From the NCBI GenBank assembly GCA_029781035.1, contig JAKOXK010000046.1, positions 1-50,707 on the forward strand: 50,707 nucleotides of DNA, in the 5' to 3' direction. The DNA is from Armatimonadota bacterium (GTDB lineage Bacteria; Armatimonadota; Fimbriimonadia; Fimbriimonadales; Fimbriimonadaceae). Shown here one piece after another: positions 15,326 through 48,869 of this stretch. Within the stretch, counting starts at the first letter, position 1. Each line of letters opens with the position of its first letter. The position numbers and the translations under genes are program-made. A model generated the notes under the pieces. The model did not search any database, was not told the DNA's origin, and worked only from the letters and a program-made list of their open reading frames with translations.

Positions 15326-17590
15326 GTGATCGCAGCGGCGGTCCTCGTATCGATGTTGCCGTTCTCTGGCCAGCCGATCCTTCCTGTGGCGGACAAGGTG
15401 GTCGCCAAGAAGCCGGACTGCTTTGTGCCGGCCGACCGCGTCGAGCTGGGTGGCTACTTGGGGCGGCGAATCGAGGCGAACGTAGCCCGATTGAAGTCTG
15501 TCGACCTGGAGCCCCTCCTCAACGGTTTCAGGCACCGTCCAGGTTCGCACCCATGGATCGGCGAGCACATCGGCAAGTGGATGCACGCCTCAGTTCTTGC
15601 GTGGGCTGAAACGGGCGATCCTGTGCTCAAATCGCGCCTGGACTACGCCGTAGCCGAGTTGTTGAAGACACAGGAGCCGGACGGATACCTGGGGACCTAT
15701 GCCCCCGACCAGCGGTTTGGGCTGTTCGAGGGTGCTGACTGGGACGTGTGGTCGCACAAGTACTGCCTGATCGGGTTGCTCGCCTACTACCGCTACACGG
15801 GTTCGCAGGCTGCATTGCGGGCCTGCGTCCGCGTGGGAGACTTGTTGTCGTCAACTTTCGGCCCAGGTCGGCGCAGCATCCTTTCGGCGGGCACCCACAT
15901 GGGAATGGCTGCGACAAGCGTATTGGAGCCGATCGTCCTCCTGTACCGTGCGACGGGCGAGCCGAGATACCTGACTTTCGCTCGAGAGATTGTCAGCAGT
16001 TGGGACGAGACGGGTGGCCCGCGAATCCTTTCGGGCCTTCTTGCTGGGAGCCATGTGGGTCACATCGCCAACGGGAAGGCTTACGAGATGCTCTCCAACC
16101 TGGTGGGTCTGTGCGAGTTGGCCCGGACAACAGGCGAAGACAGGCTGCTGAAAGCCGCGCTGCGGGCATGGGAGGATGTGCGGAGGAACCAGCTTTACAT
16201 CACGGGTACCGCCAGCTACTTTGAGCACTTTCACGAAGACCACGATCTTCCTGACGCCGAGGGCTCCAACGTCGGTGAAACGTGCGTAACGGTCACCTGG
16301 ATGCAACTCACTGAGCAGCTCCTCCGGATGACCGGCTCTCCTCAATACGCGGACGAACTAGAGCGGTCGGCCTATAACCACTTGGCCGGCGCTCAACGTC
16401 CTGACGGTGCCGCGTGGTGCTACTACACACCGTTGAAAGGCGGCAAGCCATACACGGACGAAACCTGCTGCTGTCTGTCCAGTGGGCCACGGGGAATGGC
16501 CCTCGTTCCCCGGTCCTCCTTCTATGTGACCAACCAGCGAGAAGGGCCCGAGGTCGTGGTGAACACGTTTGAGACGGCCCAAGCCCAGGTTACAGTAGGA
16601 GGCTCGACGGTACGGATCCTGCAGCGGTCTGGCTTTCCTGAGTCGGGTTCGGCCACTCTGAGGATCAAGACGGACTCGCCGACACCATTCGGCCTGCTAA
16701 TCCATGCACCGCCTTGGGCGAGAAACCTCCACGCCGTCAGTGAGGGTGTCGGCGTGCTCAAAGGTGGTTGGCTCCACGTGCGCGCCCGGGATTGGACGAA
16801 GTCAAGGTCGGTCAAGCTTGCATATGAGATCGGATCCAGCCTGATCAGGGGCGGGCCCTCCCAGCCCGATTCCGAGGCACTGACGTGGGGACCGTTTGTC
16901 CTTGCCTATGACGGGAAGCGGAACGTGAATCTCGGGCCGCCCGTTCAGTTTGCGGTTGAAGGAGACCGACTGCAACGGCTCCATGGCCTGGAGTTTCGGG
17001 CCCGCTTGATGGGTGGAACGAAGCGGCCACTGGCCACGTTTCGACCGTTCGCCGACGTCGGGTCCGACGGATCATCGTTCCGAGTCTGGATGAGGAGGCC
17101 GGACGTTTCCAATCCGTACGCCGATGCGCTCTTTCTAGGTGCGCAGGAAGGGCGCTCTTCTGAAGGAAACGTCACAGGTTCAGTCTGTGACGGTGACCCC
17201 GGCACCTTCGTCGTCACTTTCGACGACAAGCCGCAGCAAGAAGCTTGGTTCGAGGTCAGGCAGTCAAAGCCCCGAAGGGTTGGAAGGATCGTCTTTTGCC
17301 ATGGCAGGACGTTCCACGATGGAGGCTGGTTCGACACTTCAGAGGGTAAGCCGCGTGTGCAAGTGAAAGAGCACCCCGGATCTTCGTGGGAAGATGTGGG
17401 CGTTCTCACCAGCTATCCCGACGCGTCAGCGGCCAATCCTGCGCGCCTTGAGAACGGATCGGCCTTTACCCTGGTTCTGAAGAGCCCTGTGAAAGCGTTG
17501 GCCATTAGGGTCATCGGCAAGCCTGCGTGTGGTGACAGGCCGACTCAGTCATTCGCTTCGTGCGCCGAACTGCAGGCTTACGGTCGGTGA
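15326..17590 (+). CDS. Secreted GH127-type glycosidase (DUF1680)
   Basis: A 754-residue protein. A short hydrophobic N-terminus (IAAAVLVSMLPFSG) looks like a signal peptide. The (alpha/alpha)6 barrel of DUF1680/GH127 spans about residues 35-400. The metal/catalytic set known from beta-L-arabinofuranosidase HypBA1 (E-x-C plus a Cys pair) is present as GETC (E318, C320) and CCC (C381-C383). A beta-sandwich follows, and the last ~160 residues resemble an F5/8-type C (discoidin) carbohydrate-binding domain. The likely substrate is a beta-L-arabinofuranoside or related glycan; specificity in this family varies. The GTG start is set by a -10 element 6 bases upstream. The gene ends 6 bases from the convergent ABC ATPase. 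Confidence 0.85.
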   Translation: MIAAAVLVSMLPFSGQPILPVADKVVAKKPDCFVPADRVELGGYLGRRIEANVARLKSVDLEPLLNGFRHRPGSHPWIGEHIGKWMHASVLAWAETGDPVLKSRLDYAVAELLKTQEPDGYLGTYAPDQRFGLFEGADWDVWSHKYCLIGLLAYYRYTGSQAALRACVRVGDLLSSTFGPGRRSILSAGTHMGMAATSVLEPIVLLYRATGEPRYLTFAREIVSSWDETGGPRILSGLLAGSHVGHIANGKAYEMLSNLVGLCELARTTGEDRLLKAALRAWEDVRRNQLYITGTASYFEHFHEDHDLPDAEGSNVGETCVTVTWMQLTEQLLRMTGSPQYADELERSAYNHLAGAQRPDGAAWCYYTPLKGGKPYTDETCCCLSSGPRGMALVPRSSFYVTNQREGPEVVVNTFETAQAQVTVGGSTVRILQRSGFPESGSATLRIKTDSPTPFGLLIHAPPWARNLHAVSEGVGVLKGGWLHVRARDWTKSRSVKLAYEIGSSLIRGGPSQPDSEALTWGPFVLAYDGKRNVNLGPPVQFAVEGDRLQRLHGLEFRARLMGGTKRPLATFRPFADVGSDGSSFRVWMRRPDVSNPYADALFLGAQEGRSSEGNVTGSVCDGDPGTFVVTFDDKPQQEAWFEVRQSKPRRVGRIVFCHGRTFHDGGWFDTSEGKPRVQVKEHPGSSWEDVGVLTSYPDASAANPARLENGSAFTLVLKSPVKALAIRVIGKPACGDRPTQSFASCAELQAYGR

Positions 17591-21476: not shown

Positions 21477-21920
21477 CTATCCATCCCACTCCGGAAAGCG
21501 CTTCGCCAGAGCAGCCCGAACAGCCTCCTCAGAGTAGCCTCGAGAGGACAGGGCCCGTATGGCGTGCGCGACATCGTTGACCTGTTTCTTTTCGAGGAGG
21601 GCGATGGCGTTTTCAGTTTCTTGATCGAGTGTGTATCCGCCAGGTTCAGCCTCATCGTCGAGTAGACCCCTCGAGACTAACCTTTGCTTGAGTTTCTCCC
21701 GTCCAGCGCGTTTGACGTTCCGGGCGAGATCCGTTTCCCGGTCTGCGACCCGCTGATCATTCACAAATCCTCGCTCGAGGCAGATGGCTAAGGTGAGATC
21801 GATTTCGGCGGACGACCGACCTTTCGAGGCCAGATAGGCCCTCAGTTCATCCACCGTCCGCTCTCGCCTCCTCAGATAGGCGAGAGCGAGCGCCAGGGTT
21901 GGATCGGACGGCGTCTTCAC
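21477..21920 (-). CDS. recX: Regulatory protein RecX
   Basis: A 147-residue, all-helical RecX protein that binds RecA filaments and modulates recombination. The three-helix repeat pattern is visible: '[25 protein letters not shown]', then '[18 protein letters not shown]' (the conserved 'gfinD..ya' block), '[17 protein letters not shown]' and '[17 protein letters not shown]'. GTG start overlapping the recA stop (GTGA), so translation is coupled to recA. This recA-recX order is common and fits RecX as a brake on RecA. Confidence 0.9.
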
Positions 21921-22939
21921 CCTTCGATGGCCGCAACGGCCGTCGTTTGCTCCGGCTTGGTGAGGAGTTTGGTTCTCAGGGCCAGATCGAGCTCGGACAT
22001 GATCTCGGGATTACTGAGCAGAAACTCTCTGGCATTGTCCCGGCCCTGACCAAGCCGTGTCTCACCGTAGTTGTAGTACGTTCCGGCCTTGGTGACGAGG
22101 CTGTGTTCGACCGAAAGATCCAAGACGTCGCCTGCCCGGCTGATTCCTTGACCGAAGATCATGTCGAACTCGGCCTGCTTGAACGGTGGCGCGACCTTGT
22201 TCTTGACGACTTTCACTTTTGTCCGGGCTCCATAGGCGTCCGTTCCCGACTTGAGGAACTCGCCACGCCTGACCTCGAGACGGACTGACGCCCAGAACTT
22301 GAGGGCGCGGCCGCCGGGGGTCGTCTCCGGGTTACCGAACATCACGCCAATCTTCTCACGAATCTGGTTGATAAAGATCGCGGCCGTCTTTGTCTTGTTG
22401 AGGGAGCCGCCGAGCTTCCTCAGCGCCTGGCTCATCATCCGGGCCTGAAGACCAACGAAGCTGTCTCCCATGTCCCCTTCGATCTCACTCTTGGGGACCA
22501 ATGCTGCCACGGAGTCGAGCACAACAATGTCCATGGCTCCAGACGCGATCATCGCGTCCATGATCTGGAGTGCCTCCTCACCCGTTGTGGGTTGCGAAAC
22601 GTAGAGCCGATCGACGTCGACTCCCAGCGTCTTGGCATACTCGGTATCCAGTGCGTGTTCGGCGTCGACAAAGAGTGCCATGCCCCCGTTCCTCTGTGCC
22701 TCGGCAATGCAATGGAGGGCCAAAGTCGTCTTGCCGCTGGATTCAGAACCGTATATCTCGGTGATCCGGCCACGGGGGATGCCGCCAATTCCCAAAGCGA
22801 CGTCCAAGGTGAGCGAACCGGTGGAAATCGCTTCTACCGATTCGGACGTCCCTTCGCCGAGGCGCATGATCGTTCCCTTCCCAAAGCTCTTTTCGATCTG
22901 CTGTAGGGCTAGTTCTAACGCCCGTTCCCGATCCGTCAT
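21917..22939 (-). CDS. recA: Recombinase RecA
   Basis: 340-residue RecA, full length and without an intein. Walker [10 protein letters not shown] is at 64-72. Other family marks are '[11 protein letters not shown]', '[21 protein letters not shown]' (Walker B), the L1 loop and '[22 protein letters not shown]' (L2, DNA binding). The short C-terminal tail ends without the long acidic stretch of E. coli RecA. The frame is open to 23005, but ATG 22939 gives the normal N-terminus ([20 protein letters not shown]) and has GGAG nine bases upstream. The TATACT -10 at 22964-22969 leaves an 18-base leader. Confidence 0.98.
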
Positions 22940-23228
22940 ACCGTTTTTCTCCGTCGTGGCCAAAGTATAGTCGTACCTCTCTAAGGGTAGACACGACTGT
23001 ACCATAGATGCTCAAGACTAGTGCAGTTTTCAGAGCGTTTTCTGGGAAAAACGGTCCTACCAGTGGTTGACGCTGAGCCTCCTTGTTGCGCCCCTGTCCA
23101 CAAAACTGCTGACAAAGAACGTCGTGTTGTCGCGGACGGGCTGGCGGACTGAAGTCGGACGGGTCGGAGCATCAATTCTGCCAGTCCACCGTTCTGGGTG
23201 GGCCGGAGCACACGTATACTAGGCCCGC
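22940..23228. promoter_or_regulatory. Divergent recA / sugar-binding fusion intergenic region
   Basis: This 289-base gap holds the recA promoter (minus strand TATACT, 22964-22969). Just upstream is an imperfect palindrome GGTAnAnnCGnnTnTACC (22986-23003) that overlaps the -35 region and is a candidate SOS operator. A second partial dyad, GACAA...TTGTC, lies at 23111-23131. At the other end TATACT (23215-23220) serves the plus-strand fusion gene. No gene is convincing in between. Confidence 0.4.
23215..23220 (+). promoter_or_regulatory. -10 element of the binding protein-permease fusion
   Basis: TATACT ends 8 bases before the proposed CTG start at 23229. An in-frame TAG at 23220-23222 means translation cannot begin further upstream. 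No ribosome binding site lies between, so a leaderless transcript is predicted. Confidence 0.5.
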
Positions 23229-25637
23229 CTGAAACGACTCCTTCCCTTTGCGCTGCTGGCTTTTGCCGGACAGGCCTTCTCGCAGCAGACCGTCATCCGA
23301 ATGATGGCGGGGCCCGCGTTCGGCATCCCGGCCAAGGACGACCCAAACCCGCGCAACATGACCCGCCGGGCTGTGTTCGATGCGTTCCATCGTGAGAACC
23401 CGGACGTCCAGGTCGTCAACGCCGGAGGGCTCGAGATGACGGGCGACCGTGCCGAAGTGAACTTCCTCATGTCCATGGCTGGCGACACAGCCCCGGACGT
23501 GTTCTACGTCAACTTCCGTCAGTACTTTAGCTACATCGACCAAGGCTTCTGCCGACCGCTCGACGACCTTCTGAACAAGGATCCCGATTCCAAGAGACGG
23601 GTGCTTCCCGAAATCGAGAAAGTCTTGCGGAGCTACGACGGCCAAATGTACGCGATGCCGTTCTACCAGGTCGCGCAGGCCCTCTATTACCGCAGAGACT
23701 TCTTCAGGGAGGCTGGGCTTGATCCTGAAAAGCCTCCAAAGACTTGGGCCGAGTTCTACGCAGACGGACAGCGTCTCACGGAGAGCAAACCGGGTCGGTA
23801 CGGGTTCGTTTTCGAACAAGGGCTGGGTGGTAAGGCGTACTGGTGGACCAACTTCGTTTGGCAAGCTGGCGGCGACGTCCTGAAACCGGCCGAAGGCGGT
23901 TACGCGAGGGCCGTGGTCGCTACCCCCCAGGCGGCCAAGGCTCTCGATTTCTACCGTCACATGGTGAAGGACACCTGGGAAGGGGGTGACGGCAAGACTT
24001 ACGGGCCCATGGCGCTCATTTCCCCCGATTGGGCCAGAGACGTCCGCGAGGGCCGGATCGGCATGTGGTTTTCGTACACGAACGACGTCTTGCTGAGCAT
24101 CAGTGACCTCCCACCATCTCAGATTGGCGTCTCGTCCATGCCCGCCGGGCCCGCTGGGCCTGCGAACGAGATCAACGCGGGAATGTGGGCGATCAACGCC
24201 AGCGTAAAAGACCCGAAGAAGCTGGACGCATGCTGGCGTTTTATTAAGTTCTTCGTGAGCCAAGAAGCCGCTCGGATCCAGACGCAGAAGCTCGTCGAGT
24301 TGGGCCTCGGAGGTCTCGTGAACCCCGTCCTTCTCAAGCAGTTCGGCTACGAAGACTTGGCCGAGCGGGTCGATCCTGAGTACGTCGCGGCCAACGAGTC
24401 GCTCTGGACGACCGGGCACCCAGAGCCTTACGGAAGGAACTCGGCACAGGTCTACGAAGTCCTCGACAGCGCACTTGACCGGGCCAAGCTCGAGAACACG
24501 CCTTCGCTGAGGATTCTGCAGGATGTGCAGGACGAGATGAACCAGAGGCTTCTCGGCTACATCCCATCCAAGGAGATGGCCATGAAGCGAGTGTGGGCTG
24601 CGGTCGTTGCCGCCGTCGTCGGTCTGATCATCCTGGCGATTGGTTGGCTCGGGATTCGACGCGCCAGGCGCTCTCTCTCCGTCTTTGAAGACCGATTACC
24701 GGCTGGATCAGACCGCAAACGGATCCTCCGGTTTGTCGGCATTTGCCTCTTTCCAGCTCTAGCGAGCATCGTGGTGTGGGCTTACTATCCTCTCTTGGCT
24801 GGACTGGTGATCGGATTTCAGGATTACCGAATTGTACAAGGCACTCGATGGGTCGGCCTGGACAATTTCATTTCGGTATTCACGCAACCGGTCTTCTACC
24901 GGTCGCTCGTCAATTCGCTGCTGTACGTGGTCTTGAGCGTTGGGATCGGCTTTCTGTTGCCCATCCTCCTCGCCGTTGCGCTGAACGAGATTCCCCGCTT
25001 CAAACTCCTGTTCCGAACCCTCTTCTACCTGCCGGCTATGACGAGCGGCGTGGTCATCGCTTTCCTCTGGAGACAGATCTACGACCCCTCGCCGGACGGT
25101 CTCCTCAATCAGATCGTCGCTCCGTTCGCTCCGCTTTTGAACCCGGTGCTGGGAGTCTTGGGCGGTCCTCACTTGACGCCCAGGAACGATTGGCTGGGAG
25201 ACCCCAAACTCGCCATGCTGGCCGTCGTCATCCCGGGCATATGGGCGGGAGCCGGGCCGGGCTCGATCTTGTATCTCGCGGCCCTTAAGAACATCCCGGA
25301 CGAGCGCTACGAGGCCGCGGACATCGATGGCGCCTCGTGGTGGAGCAAGTTAGTCCGCATCACGTTGCCTGGCCTGAAAGCGCTCATGCTGATCAATCTC
25401 TTGGGCGTTGTTGTCGGAGGGTTCAAAGCAATGGACAACATCTTCATCCTGACAGGGGGTGGTCCTCTGTATGCGACTCACACGATCGGCCTCGAGGTGT
25501 GGAAGAACGCGTTCATGTATCTGAAGTTCGGCTACGCAACGGCCGCAGCATGGGTGATGGGATCGATCTTGATAGGATTCACGGTTACGCAAATCCGCTA
25601 CTTGACGCGGCTCAAGTTCTCTACGGCCAAAGTCTGA
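23229..25637 (+). CDS. Sugar-binding protein fused to ABC permease (CUT1-type)
   Basis: 802 residues in one uninterrupted frame. Residues 1-20 are a signal peptide, but only if translation starts at CTG 23229 (KRLLPFALLAFAGQAFSQ). The first ATG, at 23301, would delete it. Residues about 21-445 form an extracellular solute-binding domain (MalE/UgpB type, e.g. 'MPFYQVAQALYYRRDFFREA' and 'AGMWAINASVKDPKKLDACW'). A transmembrane helix at about 455-476 follows, then a basic loop. Residues about 496-802 form a MalF/UgpA-like permease with six helices and the EAA loop EAADIDGASWWSKL..ITLP (about 695). The topology is consistent: binding domain outside, linker helix inward, permease. The partner permease (MalG type) and ATPase are not adjacent. 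An internal ribosome binding site sits at the junction. Confidence 0.85.
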   Translation: MKRLLPFALLAFAGQAFSQQTVIRMMAGPAFGIPAKDDPNPRNMTRRAVFDAFHRENPDVQVVNAGGLEMTGDRAEVNFLMSMAGDTAPDVFYVNFRQYFSYIDQGFCRPLDDLLNKDPDSKRRVLPEIEKVLRSYDGQMYAMPFYQVAQALYYRRDFFREAGLDPEKPPKTWAEFYADGQRLTESKPGRYGFVFEQGLGGKAYWWTNFVWQAGGDVLKPAEGGYARAVVATPQAAKALDFYRHMVKDTWEGGDGKTYGPMALISPDWARDVREGRIGMWFSYTNDVLLSISDLPPSQIGVSSMPAGPAGPANEINAGMWAINASVKDPKKLDACWRFIKFFVSQEAARIQTQKLVELGLGGLVNPVLLKQFGYEDLAERVDPEYVAANESLWTTGHPEPYGRNSAQVYEVLDSALDRAKLENTPSLRILQDVQDEMNQRLLGYIPSKEMAMKRVWAAVVAAVVGLIILAIGWLGIRRARRSLSVFEDRLPAGSDRKRILRFVGICLFPALASIVVWAYYPLLAGLVIGFQDYRIVQGTRWVGLDNFISVFTQPVFYRSLVNSLLYVVLSVGIGFLLPILLAVALNEIPRFKLLFRTLFYLPAMTSGVVIAFLWRQIYDPSPDGLLNQIVAPFAPLLNPVLGVLGGPHLTPRNDWLGDPKLAMLAVVIPGIWAGAGPGSILYLAALKNIPDERYEAADIDGASWWSKLVRITLPGLKALMLINLLGVVVGGFKAMDNIFILTGGGPLYATHTIGLEVWKNAFMYLKFGYATAAAWVMGSILIGFTVTQIRYLTRLKFSTAKV
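24570..24584 (+). promoter_or_regulatory. Internal ribosome binding site and ATG at the fusion junction
   Basis: AAGGAG (24570-24575) followed 6 bases later by ATG (24582) lies exactly where the binding domain ends and the linker helix begins. Initiation here would give a free 351-residue permease starting MKRVWAAVV. It is either a relic of two separate genes or a working second start. Confidence 0.5.
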
Positions 25638-25640
25638 CTC

Positions 25641-25949
25641 CTAAAAGCCTTCCGGCCAGTCAGTGCTGGGGGTCAGAAAAGCCAGTGGCCCTGTCGGTCG
25701 GTCGCCCGTGTCTTCGAGGTCGTCGTCAAGGCCACGACGTGCTTCGAGCACGAGCCACCTGGCCCGCAGTAAGGGATCGCGCCCGTAGGATGCTTCGAGG
25801 ATGGCAAAGACCTCGTCTCGCTGGGGACTCGGATCAAAGCCGAAGCGAGAGTAGACCGTCGACACCCATGCCACGAGCTTTTTGAAGCGTTCCTCGCCCA
25901 ATTCCTGCTGGAACACGGTCGCCACTCGGTCGAACTGCCCCCAAGTCAC
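25641..25949 (-). CDS. Small unknown protein
   Basis: A 102-residue soluble protein with no family I recognise. It is predominantly helical in the first 70 residues (VATVFQQELGEERFKKLVAW; AILEASYGRDPLLRARWLVLEARRG) and ends in a Pro/Asp-rich tail. It is convergent with the fusion gene (3-base gap) and divergent from priA. The GTG at 25949 lies exactly 6 bases after TAAAGT, the same start geometry as many firm genes here, which is the best evidence that it is real. Confidence 0.55.
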   Translation of the reverse strand: MTWGQFDRVATVFQQELGEERFKKLVAWVSTVYSRFGFDPSPQRDEVFAILEASYGRDPLLRARWLVLEARRGLDDDLEDTGDRPTGPLAFLTPSTDWPEGF

Positions 25950-25955
25950 GGTGCG

Positions 25956-25961
25956 ACTTTA
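25956..25961 (-). promoter_or_regulatory. -10 element of the small unknown gene, leaderless
   Basis: TAAAGT on the minus strand ends 6 bases before the GTG at 25949. Confidence 0.45.
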
Positions 25962-26007
25962 CATCGCAGGACACCCTTCAACGCAACGTCTGACTCGGGC
26001 CGACATC

Positions 26008-28467
26008 GTGTGTCATCCTCAGTGCATCGAACGTCTCCTCGTCGCCGATGTCGGCTTGGACTCACGCAGTGCTGGAGCCCAGGCCCTCTACACGTACAAA
26101 GTTCCCCAAGAGGAAGACGAGCCTGGTGGCCGGTGGACCAGAGTCCAACCCGGCCAAGCCTTTCTCGTCCCGCTGGGCCCGAGGCGTGCTATCGGCTTCG
26201 TGCTGTCCGTCCGTGAGGTGGATGCCGGGGAACTTGGTTTTCCCTCGTCCCTGCTGAAACCGTTGGGAGTCCAGGTTCAAGGCCTCGAACTCCCGACAGC
26301 AACGCTTGAACTTGTGCACGAAGTCGCGCGCCAAACCCTGACACCTGTTCCAGTCTCCCTGAGCCTGGCTGTGCCCCCTGGTGTCAAGGACCGGCTTGTG
26401 ACGAAGTGGACTCTGCCGCGGTCCAGACCCGGAGGAGCCGAAGAGCCGCTGTCTACGCCGCAGCAGGAGGTCGTTCGCACCCTTCATGAGGTCGGCGAGA
26501 TTGCTGACACGAAGTCGAAACCCGTCCCTGATGGAGCCAAACGCACCTTGCGGTCCCTGGTTCGAAAGCGCCTCGTCAACGAGAGTGTCGCCTTCGCACA
26601 GGCCCAGGAGAGGCATCGGCTGGAAGGTTTGTTCCGGTTGTGTCCGGATCAGGGCAAAGTGGAGGCGTTTCTGACTGGCGTCGGTCGGAGAAGGCCGGCT
26701 CAAGCCGTTACCCTCATGCGATTGCAGGGCTCAGAGAGCGCGAGTTTTAGCGTCCAAGAGATCAAGTCGCTGGGAGGCGTGACCGATCAAACGATTAAGG
26801 CGCTGGTCCAGGCGGGACTCCTGGAAGAGGCTGAGGCAAGTCAGACACCATCGCTGCCGCTTCCCGTCCCCAATCCGGCCCAACAAGCTGCCATCGACGA
26901 AGTCTCCGCTTCCATCGCTTCGGCCAAGCACGTTGAATACCTTCTGTTCGGTGTGACCGGTTCGGGAAAGACGGAGGTCTATCTTCGTTGTGCCGCCGAA
27001 GCTTTGAGGGCAGGAAAACAGGTTCTCTATCTCGTTCCTGAGATTGCGTTGACGGCCCAAGTGATCGCCCAGCTTCGAGAGCGGTTTGGCAACCTTGTGG
27101 CGGTCATGCACTCCAACATGACGCCTTCCGAACGGTTGGCCAACTGGCACAAAGTGCGAACCGGAGAGTGTCCCGTTGTTCTTGGCCCTCGGTCGGCCGT
27201 CTTTGCCCCTCTTGCAAACCTAGGGCTGGTCATCGTGGACGAAGAGCACGAAACGAGCTACAAGCAGGAGACTTCGCCCCGCTATCAGACCAAGAGGCTG
27301 GTGTCGTTCCTGGCTGGCCGCTTCGAGTGTCCTGTCTTGCTGGGATCGGCCACGCCGAGCATCGAGGCTTTCCATGCCGCAAGTGAAGGCAAACTGAAGC
27401 TTCTGCGGCTACCCCAAAGAGCGGCAATGGCCAAGTTGCCTGCGGTCGAGGTGGTCAATCTTGTCGAGCTCTATCGTGAGAAAAGGCCTTCTATCTTGGC
27501 TCCCCGGCTCGTCGACCATGTCAACAGTGCCTTGGAGCGGGGGGAGCAGGCAATCCTCTTCCTGAACCGTAGGGCTTACTCACCGTTTCTCTTGTGCCGG
27601 GATTGTGGGCACCGGTTTGAGTGTCGACACTGCGCTGTGTCGCTAGCTTTTCACCGCCGCGATCTGAAACTGCGTTGTCATCAGTGTGGCTATCAGGAGG
27701 CGGCTCCCGACCGGTGTCCCCAGTGCGAGAGCGACCGTGTCTCTCCCTTCGGAACAGGTACAGAGAAGGTCGAAGAAGCCGTTCAAGCGATGTTCGAGGG
27801 TGCCAGAGTCGTTCGTCTGGATCGTGACATCGCACGGCGTAAGGGAGCGCTGGAAGAGACGTTGGCAGCTTTTCGAAGCCGGTCCGCCGACATCCTGGTC
27901 GGCACACAGATGGTCGCCAAGGGGCTGGACTTCCCGAACGTGACGGTCGTAGGTGTCGTGGCTGCGGATGTCTCGCTCAATGTGCCGGACTTTCGATCTG
28001 GAGAACGGACGTTTCAACTGCTCTCGCAAGTTGCGGGGAGGGCAGGCCGCGGCGCGTCGCCAGGCGTCGTCGTCATCCAAACGATGAATCCCGAAAACGA
28101 AGCTGTGATCAGTGCCCAGGCACACGACTACGAGACCTTCTATCAGTCTGAGCTTGAACAAAGGCGCGAGGCCGGTTACCCCCCATTTACGCGTCTGGTG
28201 AACGTGCTCGTGACGGGAGAGAACCGGCATGACGTTCTTGGCCTGTCCGCCGTTGCGGCCCAAAAGCTGCGGGTCGCACTTGTCGGAGCTGAAGTCCTTG
28301 GCCCGGCCGACTGTCCGATCGAAAGGCTGCAAAACCTTTGGCGCCGGCACGTCTTGATCAAACTCAAGCCGGACGCAGACCCCGCACCCGTCCAGAGTGC
28401 GCTCGCAGACCTGAGGGCTCCAAAGGCAAGGGTCGTTGTCGATGTCGATCCTGTCTCACTGATGTGA
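26008..28467 (+). CDS. priA: Primosomal protein N' (replication restart helicase)
   Basis: About 819 residues from GTG 26008. PriA recognises stalled forks and reloads the replicative helicase. In order: the 3' DNA-binding domain with 'ADVGLDSRSAGAQALYTYKVP', a winged-helix region, and helicase motif I 'FGVTGSGKTEVYLR'. Then come DEEH ('VDEEHETSYKQ'), 'LLGSATPSIEA', the zinc cluster (CRDCGHRFECRHC ... LRCHQCGYQ ... CPQCES, eight cysteines), 'ILVGTQMVAKGLDFPNVT' and 'QVAGRAGRG'. The frame extends upstream to 25882. Family alignment places the start near residue 7 of this version; an ATC at 26026, six bases after CATCCT, would give MERLLVADVG and is a real alternative. The 3' end overlaps the convergent redoxin gene by 12 bases. 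Confidence 0.94.
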   Translation: MCHPQCIERLLVADVGLDSRSAGAQALYTYKVPQEEDEPGGRWTRVQPGQAFLVPLGPRRAIGFVLSVREVDAGELGFPSSLLKPLGVQVQGLELPTATLELVHEVARQTLTPVPVSLSLAVPPGVKDRLVTKWTLPRSRPGGAEEPLSTPQQEVVRTLHEVGEIADTKSKPVPDGAKRTLRSLVRKRLVNESVAFAQAQERHRLEGLFRLCPDQGKVEAFLTGVGRRRPAQAVTLMRLQGSESASFSVQEIKSLGGVTDQTIKALVQAGLLEEAEASQTPSLPLPVPNPAQQAAIDEVSASIASAKHVEYLLFGVTGSGKTEVYLRCAAEALRAGKQVLYLVPEIALTAQVIAQLRERFGNLVAVMHSNMTPSERLANWHKVRTGECPVVLGPRSAVFAPLANLGLVIVDEEHETSYKQETSPRYQTKRLVSFLAGRFECPVLLGSATPSIEAFHAASEGKLKLLRLPQRAAMAKLPAVEVVNLVELYREKRPSILAPRLVDHVNSALERGEQAILFLNRRAYSPFLLCRDCGHRFECRHCAVSLAFHRRDLKLRCHQCGYQEAAPDRCPQCESDRVSPFGTGTEKVEEAVQAMFEGARVVRLDRDIARRKGALEETLAAFRSRSADILVGTQMVAKGLDFPNVTVVGVVAADVSLNVPDFRSGERTFQLLSQVAGRAGRGASPGVVVIQTMNPENEAVISAQAHDYETFYQSELEQRREAGYPPFTRLVNVLVTGENRHDVLGLSAVAAQKLRVALVGAEVLGPADCPIERLQNLWRRHVLIKLKPDADPAPVQSALADLRAPKARVVVDVDPVSLM

Positions 28468-46736: not shown

Positions 46737-48869
46737 GTGAACGTGCCGTCCTTGATCTTCTGGCTGGTCAGTGGATCGCCCGGAACATTGCCGCACCCAG
46801 GGCTTGAGCCCTTCGACTTCCGTGGAGTTCGAATCAACTCAGGCATGTTCCGCGAACTCGCGGACGAAGCGAAGCAGTACTACCTCCGGATACCTGACGA
46901 CGATCTGCTTGTGGGTTTTGAAAAGCGGTCAGGGCGTCAAGCCGTGGGCCACGAACTGGGTGGTTGGTACTCCCAAGACGTTTTTTCTGTGTTTGGCCAA
47001 GTCCTGTCGGGGCTCGCCAGGCTCTATGCGGCGACCGCGGATGAAGCCTGCAGAACGAAAGCGAAAGCGCTCTTGGCTCGATGGGGCTCTTGTCTGGCAA
47101 AGGACGGGTACTTCTACTACTCGGACAAGCCGAACGCGCCTCATTATGTTTACGACAAGCTTGTGGGAGGTCTCGTCGACATGGCGGAGTACTGCGGCGA
47201 CAAATCCGCACTCGCCTATCTGTCCACCATTACCGAGTGGGCCGAGAAGCACCTGGACCGAAGCAACCTCTACGCCTTCAACTTCGTGTCGGGCCCGACG
47301 GAATGGTACACGCTAAGCGAAAACCTCTACCGCGCCTATCGCCTGACCGGTGACCAGAAGTATAAGGACTTCGCAAGGGTTTGGGAGTACAAGGACTACT
47401 GGAGGCTGTACGCCGTCCACAAGAGCATCTTTGGAAAGCGGTCCGACGGCGGGCAGACGACGGCCTATCACGCCTACAGCCACGTTAACAGCCTTGGCGG
47501 GGCGGCTCTCGCGTATGAGGTGACTGGCGATGCATGGTATCTCGAAACCCTGAAGCAGGCGTACAGCTTTCTGAGGGCGAACGAATGCTTTGCCACGGGT
47601 GGCTATGGCCCCAACGAAACGCTGGCACCCAAAGACCAGATTGAGCGATTGCTGACCGAGACGACGAACACGTTCGAGACCCAGTGCGGATCTTGGGCCG
47701 TGTTCAAGCTGTGCAAACACCTCATAGCTTTGACTGGTGACGCTCAGTACGGAAACTGGGTCGAAGAACTTGCCTATAACGGGGTCGGAGCCACGATTCC
47801 GATGACCAGTGCGGGACAGGTGATGTACTACTCTGACTACAACCCCGCAGGAGGTGTCAAGAAGAACTGCCCTGACGGCTGGTCGTGCTGTACGGGGACA
47901 CGGCCCATGGCGGTGGCCGACGTCACCGATCTTGTTTACTTCCATTCACCGAATGGTCTGTTTGTGAACCTGTTTGTCCCCTCTAAAGCGCGCTTGCGAC
48001 TCAGAGGCGTCCAAGCCGATGTTGTCCAGCAGACTCGGTTTCCGGACGTTCCCGGAACATCGCTGAAAGTGACTGTCTCAAGACCGGTCCGGTTCACTAT
48101 CGGTCTCCGTGCCCCGTCTTGGCTGACGGAACAGCCAACAGCAACTGTGAACGGCCGCTCCGTACCGCTGACCAAGAGCGGCTCGAACTGGCTGTGCGTC
48201 ACAAGAGTCTGGCGGCGGGGGGACGAACTGAAGGTCAACTTACCAATGGAGCCGCGCTCAGTGCCGTTCACGACCGGCAGGCCATACCCGACCGCCATCG
48301 CGGTCGGACCGGTCGTTCTGGCGTTCCGCTCTGACGCCGGCAACCCTGCATTGAAGCTGAATCTCGGGAAGCTCAGGTCGGAGCTCGAACCTGTTTCGGG
48401 TAGTTCGTTGACCTACCGCCTGCGCCAAGATCCCGCAGTGGTCGGACGCCCGTTCTATGACTACAAAGAGGGTGAGGAGTACTTTCTGTACTTGGATCCC
48501 GCCTACGCAGGTGTGCTCTCGTACAGACGGCTCGAAACGCACGGCCTTTGGCGCGACAGCGGCCAGTTCTGGTACTCCAACGAAATCGGGGCAACTTGCG
48601 AGGGATCCTTCGACGGTGACTCGCTTCGCGTCTTGGGAGGGCGGTACGACGACGGTGGACGGGCCGAGGTTCGGGTGGACGGAAAGGTCGTAGGGACTTT
48701 CGATCAATACGGGCCGGGCCGTCCCCTTCCTTTCGAATGGCACGTTAGCGGCCTCGGCGTGAGTCACCACAGGGTCCGGATCACCGTGTTGCCCGACAAA
48801 GACCCTGCCTCTACCGACCACTACATCAACGTCGCTGGTCTTAAGGTCGGATGTCGCCTGTCGGATTAG
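46737..48869 (+). CDS. Second GH127-like (DUF1680) glycosidase
   Basis: A 710-residue protein. A weak hydrophobic N-terminus (LIFWLVSG) may be a signal peptide. The helical barrel of DUF1680 covers about residues 30-400 ('GHELGGWYSQD', 'YVYDKLVGGLVDMA', 'TTAYHAYSHVNSLGG'). The metal/catalytic Cys pair is present (SCC, C384-C385), but the acidic partner motif reads E314-T-Q-C317, one residue longer than the E-x-C of the first GH127 protein. A beta-sandwich follows; residues about 600-705 form a further jelly-roll-like domain. It is diverged from the protein at 15.3 kb, not a recent copy. The stop overlaps the convergent isomerase-like gene by 4 bases. Confidence 0.8.
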   Translation: MNVPSLIFWLVSGSPGTLPHPGLEPFDFRGVRINSGMFRELADEAKQYYLRIPDDDLLVGFEKRSGRQAVGHELGGWYSQDVFSVFGQVLSGLARLYAATADEACRTKAKALLARWGSCLAKDGYFYYSDKPNAPHYVYDKLVGGLVDMAEYCGDKSALAYLSTITEWAEKHLDRSNLYAFNFVSGPTEWYTLSENLYRAYRLTGDQKYKDFARVWEYKDYWRLYAVHKSIFGKRSDGGQTTAYHAYSHVNSLGGAALAYEVTGDAWYLETLKQAYSFLRANECFATGGYGPNETLAPKDQIERLLTETTNTFETQCGSWAVFKLCKHLIALTGDAQYGNWVEELAYNGVGATIPMTSAGQVMYYSDYNPAGGVKKNCPDGWSCCTGTRPMAVADVTDLVYFHSPNGLFVNLFVPSKARLRLRGVQADVVQQTRFPDVPGTSLKVTVSRPVRFTIGLRAPSWLTEQPTATVNGRSVPLTKSGSNWLCVTRVWRRGDELKVNLPMEPRSVPFTTGRPYPTAIAVGPVVLAFRSDAGNPALKLNLGKLRSELEPVSGSSLTYRLRQDPAVVGRPFYDYKEGEEYFLYLDPAYAGVLSYRRLETHGLWRDSGQFWYSNEIGATCEGSFDGDSLRVLGGRYDDGGRAEVRVDGKVVGTFDQYGPGRPLPFEWHVSGLGVSHHRVRITVLPDKDPASTDHYINVAGLKVGCRLSD

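Follow-up and report, generated by a model that had tools for sequence, protein, structure and literature searches.

A stretch of 50,707 nucleotides from an Armatimonadota bacterium (the window) encodes, in one open reading frame, a binding domain of the sugar type joined to a permease domain of the MalF/UgpA (CUT1) lineage. The fusion is a genuine arrangement, conserved in much of the phylum and in several others. Very likely it supplies both the binding domain and one permease subunit of a type I, CUT1-class ABC importer that takes up a di- or oligosaccharide, in which an orphan MalG-type permease would be the partner and a single MalK/UgpC-type protein the ATPase, both encoded elsewhere in the window genome (G000). 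The features are collected in Table 1.

Table 1. Features of the fused gene, its neighbours and the predicted partner genes in the window genome G000 (positions with two dots are those of the window; the others give genome, contig and range)
Feature	Position	Strand	Evidence and remarks
Fused gene: binding domain and MalF/UgpA-type permease	23229..25637	+	802 aa, single open frame, TGA stop; Pfam; single-frame orthologues
-10-like TATACT	23215..23220	+	8 nt upstream of the predicted CTG start; probable leaderless transcript
Signal peptide LKRLLPFALLAFAGQAFS	23229..23282	+	Direct reading; lipobox cysteine absent; CTG start
Type-1 carbohydrate-binding domain, residues 19-441	23283..24551	+	Pfam and structural match
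Added helix TM0, residues 447-483	24567..24677	+	AlphaFold helix; hydrophobic core, then basic residues
MalF/UgpA-type permease domain, residues 496-793	24714..25607	+	Pfam, NCBIfam and PDB sequence relatives
EAA loop YEAADIDGA	25308..25334	+	Conserved in alignments of orthologues and fusions; ATPase contact in the family
recA, conserved upstream neighbour (context, outside the importer)	21917..23005	-	Adjacent in the G001, G010, G035, G034 and G023 stretches
priA, conserved downstream neighbour (context, outside the importer)	25882..28467	+	Pfam PriA_C; adjacent in the G001, G010, G035 and G034 stretches
Orphan MalG-type permease	G000:C50:42861-44516		No MalF beside it; unlinked to the window fusion
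MalK/UgpC-type ATPase	G000:C12:120968-122092		One match above the NCBIfam PRK11650 cut-off, over the full profile span

The frame runs without a stop for 802 codons (23229-25634, forward strand) and ends with TGA at 25635-25637. The initial annotation read it as an uninterrupted succession of signal peptide, MalE/UgpB-type domain, linker helix and MalF/UgpA-type permease with an EAA loop, and translation, Pfam and AlphaFold all agree with that reading. No ATG, GTG or TTG start was found in the frame ahead of the signal peptide. Because an in-frame TAG lies at 23220, the CTG at 23229 is the only usable start. The sister species G001 has a CTG at the same position, with an earlier GTG that is open in that genome; most other orthologues start with ATG and have a near -10 box. 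Of 15 orthologues, 11 have a TATAAT-like hexamer 5-12 nt ahead of the start, where 2000 shuffles gave a mean of 1.5 and at most 7, and only 1 of the 15 has a Shine-Dalgarno-like motif. The window start (23215-23231) has no Shine-Dalgarno motif, and no full sigma-70 match with a -35 element was found upstream of the gene. The -10-like hexamer so near the start, together with the scarcity of Shine-Dalgarno motifs, points to leaderless transcripts for the fused gene. Translation of the window gene would begin at the CTG on a transcript that is probably leaderless, and CTG initiation on such a transcript, if it occurs, would be unusual.

In Pfam, the fused protein matches SBP_bac_1 over residues 47-348 (E 4e-37) and BPD_transp_1 over residues 574-782 (E 3e-11), both above their gathering scores. 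The AlphaFold model, with 17 homologues in the input, has a mean pLDDT of 82 and a pTM of 0.71 and is divided into a binding domain (residues about 20-441), a long helix (447-483) and the permease helices (496-793). Residues 20-443 of the model superpose on 5ci5_B with a Z-score of 36.6 and a deviation of 2.9 Å over 374 residues, one of several sugar-binding proteins that match the domain at Z >30; the fold is common to dinucleotide- and glycerophosphodiester-binding proteins too. For the permease part, the best NCBIfam matches are UgpA, GlcT and MalF, all below their own cut-offs and hence assigning no specific substrate, and its sequence relatives in the PDB are AlgM1, SugA and MalF. Thus a type-1 carbohydrate-binding domain is present and both domains match sugar-importer families. 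Membership of the amino-acid or osmoprotectant importer families of GlnPQ and OpuA is ruled out by the same best matches. The EAA loop is kept in an alignment of 30 orthologues and in another of 17 fusions from several phyla.

The chain of a CUT1 permease starts on the cytoplasmic side. With the binding domain outside, a fusion to such a permease needs one extra crossing of the membrane, and TM0 is that crossing. The TM0 region has a hydrophobic stretch in 30/30 orthologues (19-residue mean Kyte-Doolittle value of at least 1.7; median 2.3 over the 30), followed by net positive charge in 29/30. Within the protein, conservation is lowest in TM0 and its flanks, where 75% of residues differ from the window sequence, as against 31-37% in the two domains. 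So little conservation of sequence is as expected of a plain anchor. It would also suit a chain that, once exported, is cleaved ahead of TM0 to separate off the binding domain and give an ordinary free binding protein and a permease, since little sequence then holds the halves together. We consider this improbable. Nearly all homologues keep the hydrophobic character of TM0 and the basic residues behind it, the joint that leads from the binding domain into TM0 (residues 438-454) is constant in length across 30/30 orthologues, and no conserved cleavage motif is visible around it in the orthologue alignment.

The search for the same architecture proposed in the initial annotation found it across the phylum and in other phyla. 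Among the 61 genomes of near relatives, the orthologues are 50-79% identical and nearly all are full length, in single frames of about 800-890 codons. Phylum-wide, 144 of 291 genomes match the fusion at E <= 1e-60; more than 90 of the matches listed cover both domains in one frame, and some others reach only the C-terminal two thirds of the protein. Similar fusions were found in metagenome-assembled genomes (MAGs) of Lentisphaerota, Kiritimatiellota, Phycisphaerae, Cloacimonadota and Delongbacteria, in a MAG whose Actinomycetota label is doubtful, and in the isolate Oligosphaera ethanolica. A plasmid search gave no fused homologue that could be confirmed, and the annotated matches listed there are two genes. 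A sequencing or assembly error that joins two genes has a negligible probability and is ruled out by the same single frame in dozens of independent assemblies, single-contig ones included. Nor are the homologues always separate genes, the other doubt raised about the fusion at the outset: single-frame orthologues exist, and the attempt at refutation failed on both counts.

No partner permease or ATPase adjoins the window fusion, as the initial annotation had stated; the flanking genes are recA, on the opposite strand, and priA. The slot between these two genes is kept in several genera. Two GH127 beta-L-arabinofuranosidase-like proteins are encoded in the window, at 15326-17590 and 46737-48869.

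That the gene stands alone between recA and priA, and has no gene of sugar metabolism as a neighbour, might suggest that the fused protein is a sugar sensor or regulator and not a transporter. This is very improbable, because the EAA loop needed for contact with the ATPase is conserved, because a dedicated MalG co-occurs with the fusion and lies next to it in other genomes, and because a MalK gene is adjacent in one locus (L130). In other genomes sugar-enzyme genes adjoin several of the homologues, among them a GH38 mannosidase, a heparinase-like gene and a GlcNAc-epimerase. Since these neighbours vary between genomes, no single sugar is fixed by them.

The absence of any partner permease is ruled out by an orphan MalG-type gene in the window genome. 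Its discovery, with that of a single MalK-type ATPase gene, answers the suggestion in the initial annotation to look for both away from the fusion; the three genes lie on three different contigs. The orphan protein matches BPD_transp_1, and its PDB relatives are AlgM2 and MalG. Its EAA motif is degenerate (DSGQVDGA). A large extracytoplasmic insertion of about 265 residues separates its first helix from the permease core. In the E. coli maltose importer, the large periplasmic loop is on MalF, and MalG is without it.

The orphan MalG and the fusion keep company. In the 61 related genomes both are found in 36, the fusion alone in 0, MalG alone in 3 and neither in 22 (Fisher p 1e-13, a value that is overstated because the genomes are related). 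The three genomes with MalG alone are G003, G036 and G002. Since G003 and G036 also have no recA, the fusion region is probably missing from their assemblies. G002 (88% complete) has MalG and recA, with no fusion beside recA, and may have lost it. In a divergent relative (G004, locus L104) fusion and MalG are adjacent on one strand, a few bases apart. MalG is the next gene in most of the other phyla too: at loci L127 and L129-L135 it comes after the fusion, is about 640-770 codons long and has a core 41-59% identical to the orphan (52-59% in most of these other-phylum loci), and in L130 a MalK gene precedes the pair. The adjacency of the two genes elsewhere and their lack of linkage here indicate an operon that has been split in the window family.

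Other MalG-type genes exist in G000, so that the fusion could belong to an importer with one of them as partner, for example that on contig C94 or C92, and with the insertion-bearing orphan not used. The shared history of the genomes, which makes the co-occurrence counts overstate independence, leaves some room for this. We nevertheless regard it as improbable, on a par with cleavage after export: the C94 and C92 genes have a MalF of their own, and the orphan is the MalG type that stands beside this type of fusion in other phyla and in G004. The orphan is accordingly retained below as the preferred partner.

The insertion in MalG has no Pfam domain. An AlphaFold model of the Oligosphaera protein, made with only 8 sequences, has a poor permease core, and its insertion reaches a pLDDT near 90 over about residues 190-410 and is mostly helical. 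Foldseek gave no confident match to the insertion, the best (E 0.0075) being to MalG-type permeases; local resemblances of short length to glycoside hydrolases, such as 41 residues of 9whd at 34% identity, are a lead only. In the MalG proteins of L135 (7548-9449), L133 (7536-9479) and L134 (4874-7024), the insertion has about four tandem helical repeats of 70-76 residues. The repeat profile was built from motif matches, in part the same sequences as those it was tested on, and the outer copies are weak. In the MalG of the window genome the repeat is a trace only.

Related genomes, like G000, generally have one strong MalK/UgpC-type match each. The use of one ATPase by several sugar importers is established for MsmX and MsmK in Firmicutes (PMC7658222). 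The MalK-type ATPase of G000, a separate protein of the type that has a regulatory OB domain in CUT1-class importers, is presumably common to the fusion importer and the other CUT1 importers of the genome.

In the preferred reading, with the orphan MalG as partner, the signal peptide would be removed and the binding domain would come to lie outside the membrane, where TM0 would keep it attached while returning the chain to the cytoplasmic side. The loaded binding domain would dock on a heterodimer made of its own MalF domain and the separate MalG, and ATP hydrolysis by MalK2 would then let the sugar enter. The fused frame, its two domains and its conservation, the association with this MalG and the single ATPase are direct findings; the assembly, transport by it and a chain left uncut after export we infer. 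The substrate, to go by fold and family, is probably a di- or oligosaccharide. The covalent linkage would set a 1:1 ratio of binding protein to permease. Should MalF and MalG form a heterodimeric permease, each complex would hold one tethered binding domain, and with only one permease half carrying such a domain it would have a single binding site. A wider proposal is that the window fusion and the repeat-bearing MalG make up one importer family, which is widespread in Armatimonadota and also occurs in at least five other phyla, and that its single tethered domain acts together with a docking domain of helical repeats on MalG. We offer it tentatively, its chances falling just short of even.

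A second type of fusion is encoded twice in G000, at C88:47834-50350 (L059 5835-8351) and C50:28445-30844 (L060 6443-8908). After each copy comes a MalG gene whose product has extra N-terminal helices and a different extracytoplasmic insertion of its own. A third GH127 beta-L-arabinofuranosidase-like protein is encoded near the C50 fusion (L060 11607-13961). This second type matches in 219 of the 291 phylum genomes at E <= 1e-60, where matches near the limit may be unfused. In a tree of permease domains each type forms one clade, with separate permeases between the two. A single clade of both types was not rejected (p 0.44), and independent origins are for that reason not claimed. Fused binding-protein/MalF genes outside both main clades were seen in a proteobacterial MAG (L138:4407-6803), in Sumerlaeota (L159:4818-7169) and in Omnitrophota (L169:4788-7106); in the last two, the next gene after the fusion encodes a MalG shorter than the large-insertion type. 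A different joining, of MalF to MalG, is seen at L117:8885-10828 (in G038:C31), where a single frame of about 650 codons contains BPD_transp_1 twice and a MalK-type gene lies just downstream.

What is new here is the breadth of the fusion, its split locus, a conserved MalG partner in which helical repeats stand in tandem, and a putative CTG start on a probably leaderless transcript. No earlier description of such fusions in these phyla was found in the open-access literature. For tethered binding domains in the CUT1 family we found one characterised example; in much of this phylum they are standard. The outer domain of the partner permease, with its repeats, is undescribed and occurs together with the fusion. 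Should the docking reading prove true, the family would deliver its substrate in a manner distinct among CUT1 importers. The locus is also an example of a conserved operon split into unlinked genes whose members are kept together.

The initial annotation held that in the CUT1 family the binding protein is normally a separate lipoprotein; a fusion in this family is nevertheless not without precedent. PDB entry 6FFL, titled MalE from Bdellovibrio bacteriovorus and named there as a transport permease homologue, is presumably the binding domain of the transporter of Licht et al. 2019; its chain 6ffl_A matches the window binding domain with a Z-score of 31.6 and a deviation of 3.4 Å over 364 residues at 16% identity. 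According to PMC9045158, fusion of a binding protein to the permease does occur, and Licht et al. 2019 is cited there for a maltose/maltodextrin transporter with MalE fused to MalF. That precedent makes the CUT1 MalE-MalF fusion a kind already known. Like the window protein, the transporter has a single binding domain of the same fold on a MalF-type CUT1 subunit; the Bdellovibrio MalE-MalF is very distant in sequence from the window fusion, and the two were compared by binding-domain fold alone. E. coli MalEFGK2 and mycobacterial LpqY-SugABC belong to the same permease and binding-domain family, but their binding protein is a separate chain. Tethering forgoes the excess of binding protein over translocator that is otherwise usual (PMC9045158). 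The suggestion that it also removes the need for a lipid anchor is weak, as diderms usually have a binding protein that is free in the periplasm instead (PMC8025302). Sharing of an unlinked ATPase among several importers rests on experiment for MsmX and MsmK (PMC7658222), whereas in G000 it is deduced.

The order of domains in OpuA differs from that in the window fusion. OpuA has a covalently linked binding domain, a short linker and a membrane-anchoring hydrophobic sequence; it belongs to an osmoprotectant family and has two binding domains per complex (PMC11065425). In GlnPQ the binding domains are N-terminal to the membrane domain in one chain, as in the window protein, but this amino-acid importer is built on a GlnP homodimer with two binding domains per chain and four per complex (PMC8025302), whereas the window fusion is predicted to form a heterodimeric permease with one tethered domain. 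With the contrast between a complex with one binding site and those of GlnPQ and OpuA, questions of stoichiometry and delivery become open to test in isolates, for example Oligosphaera ethanolica.
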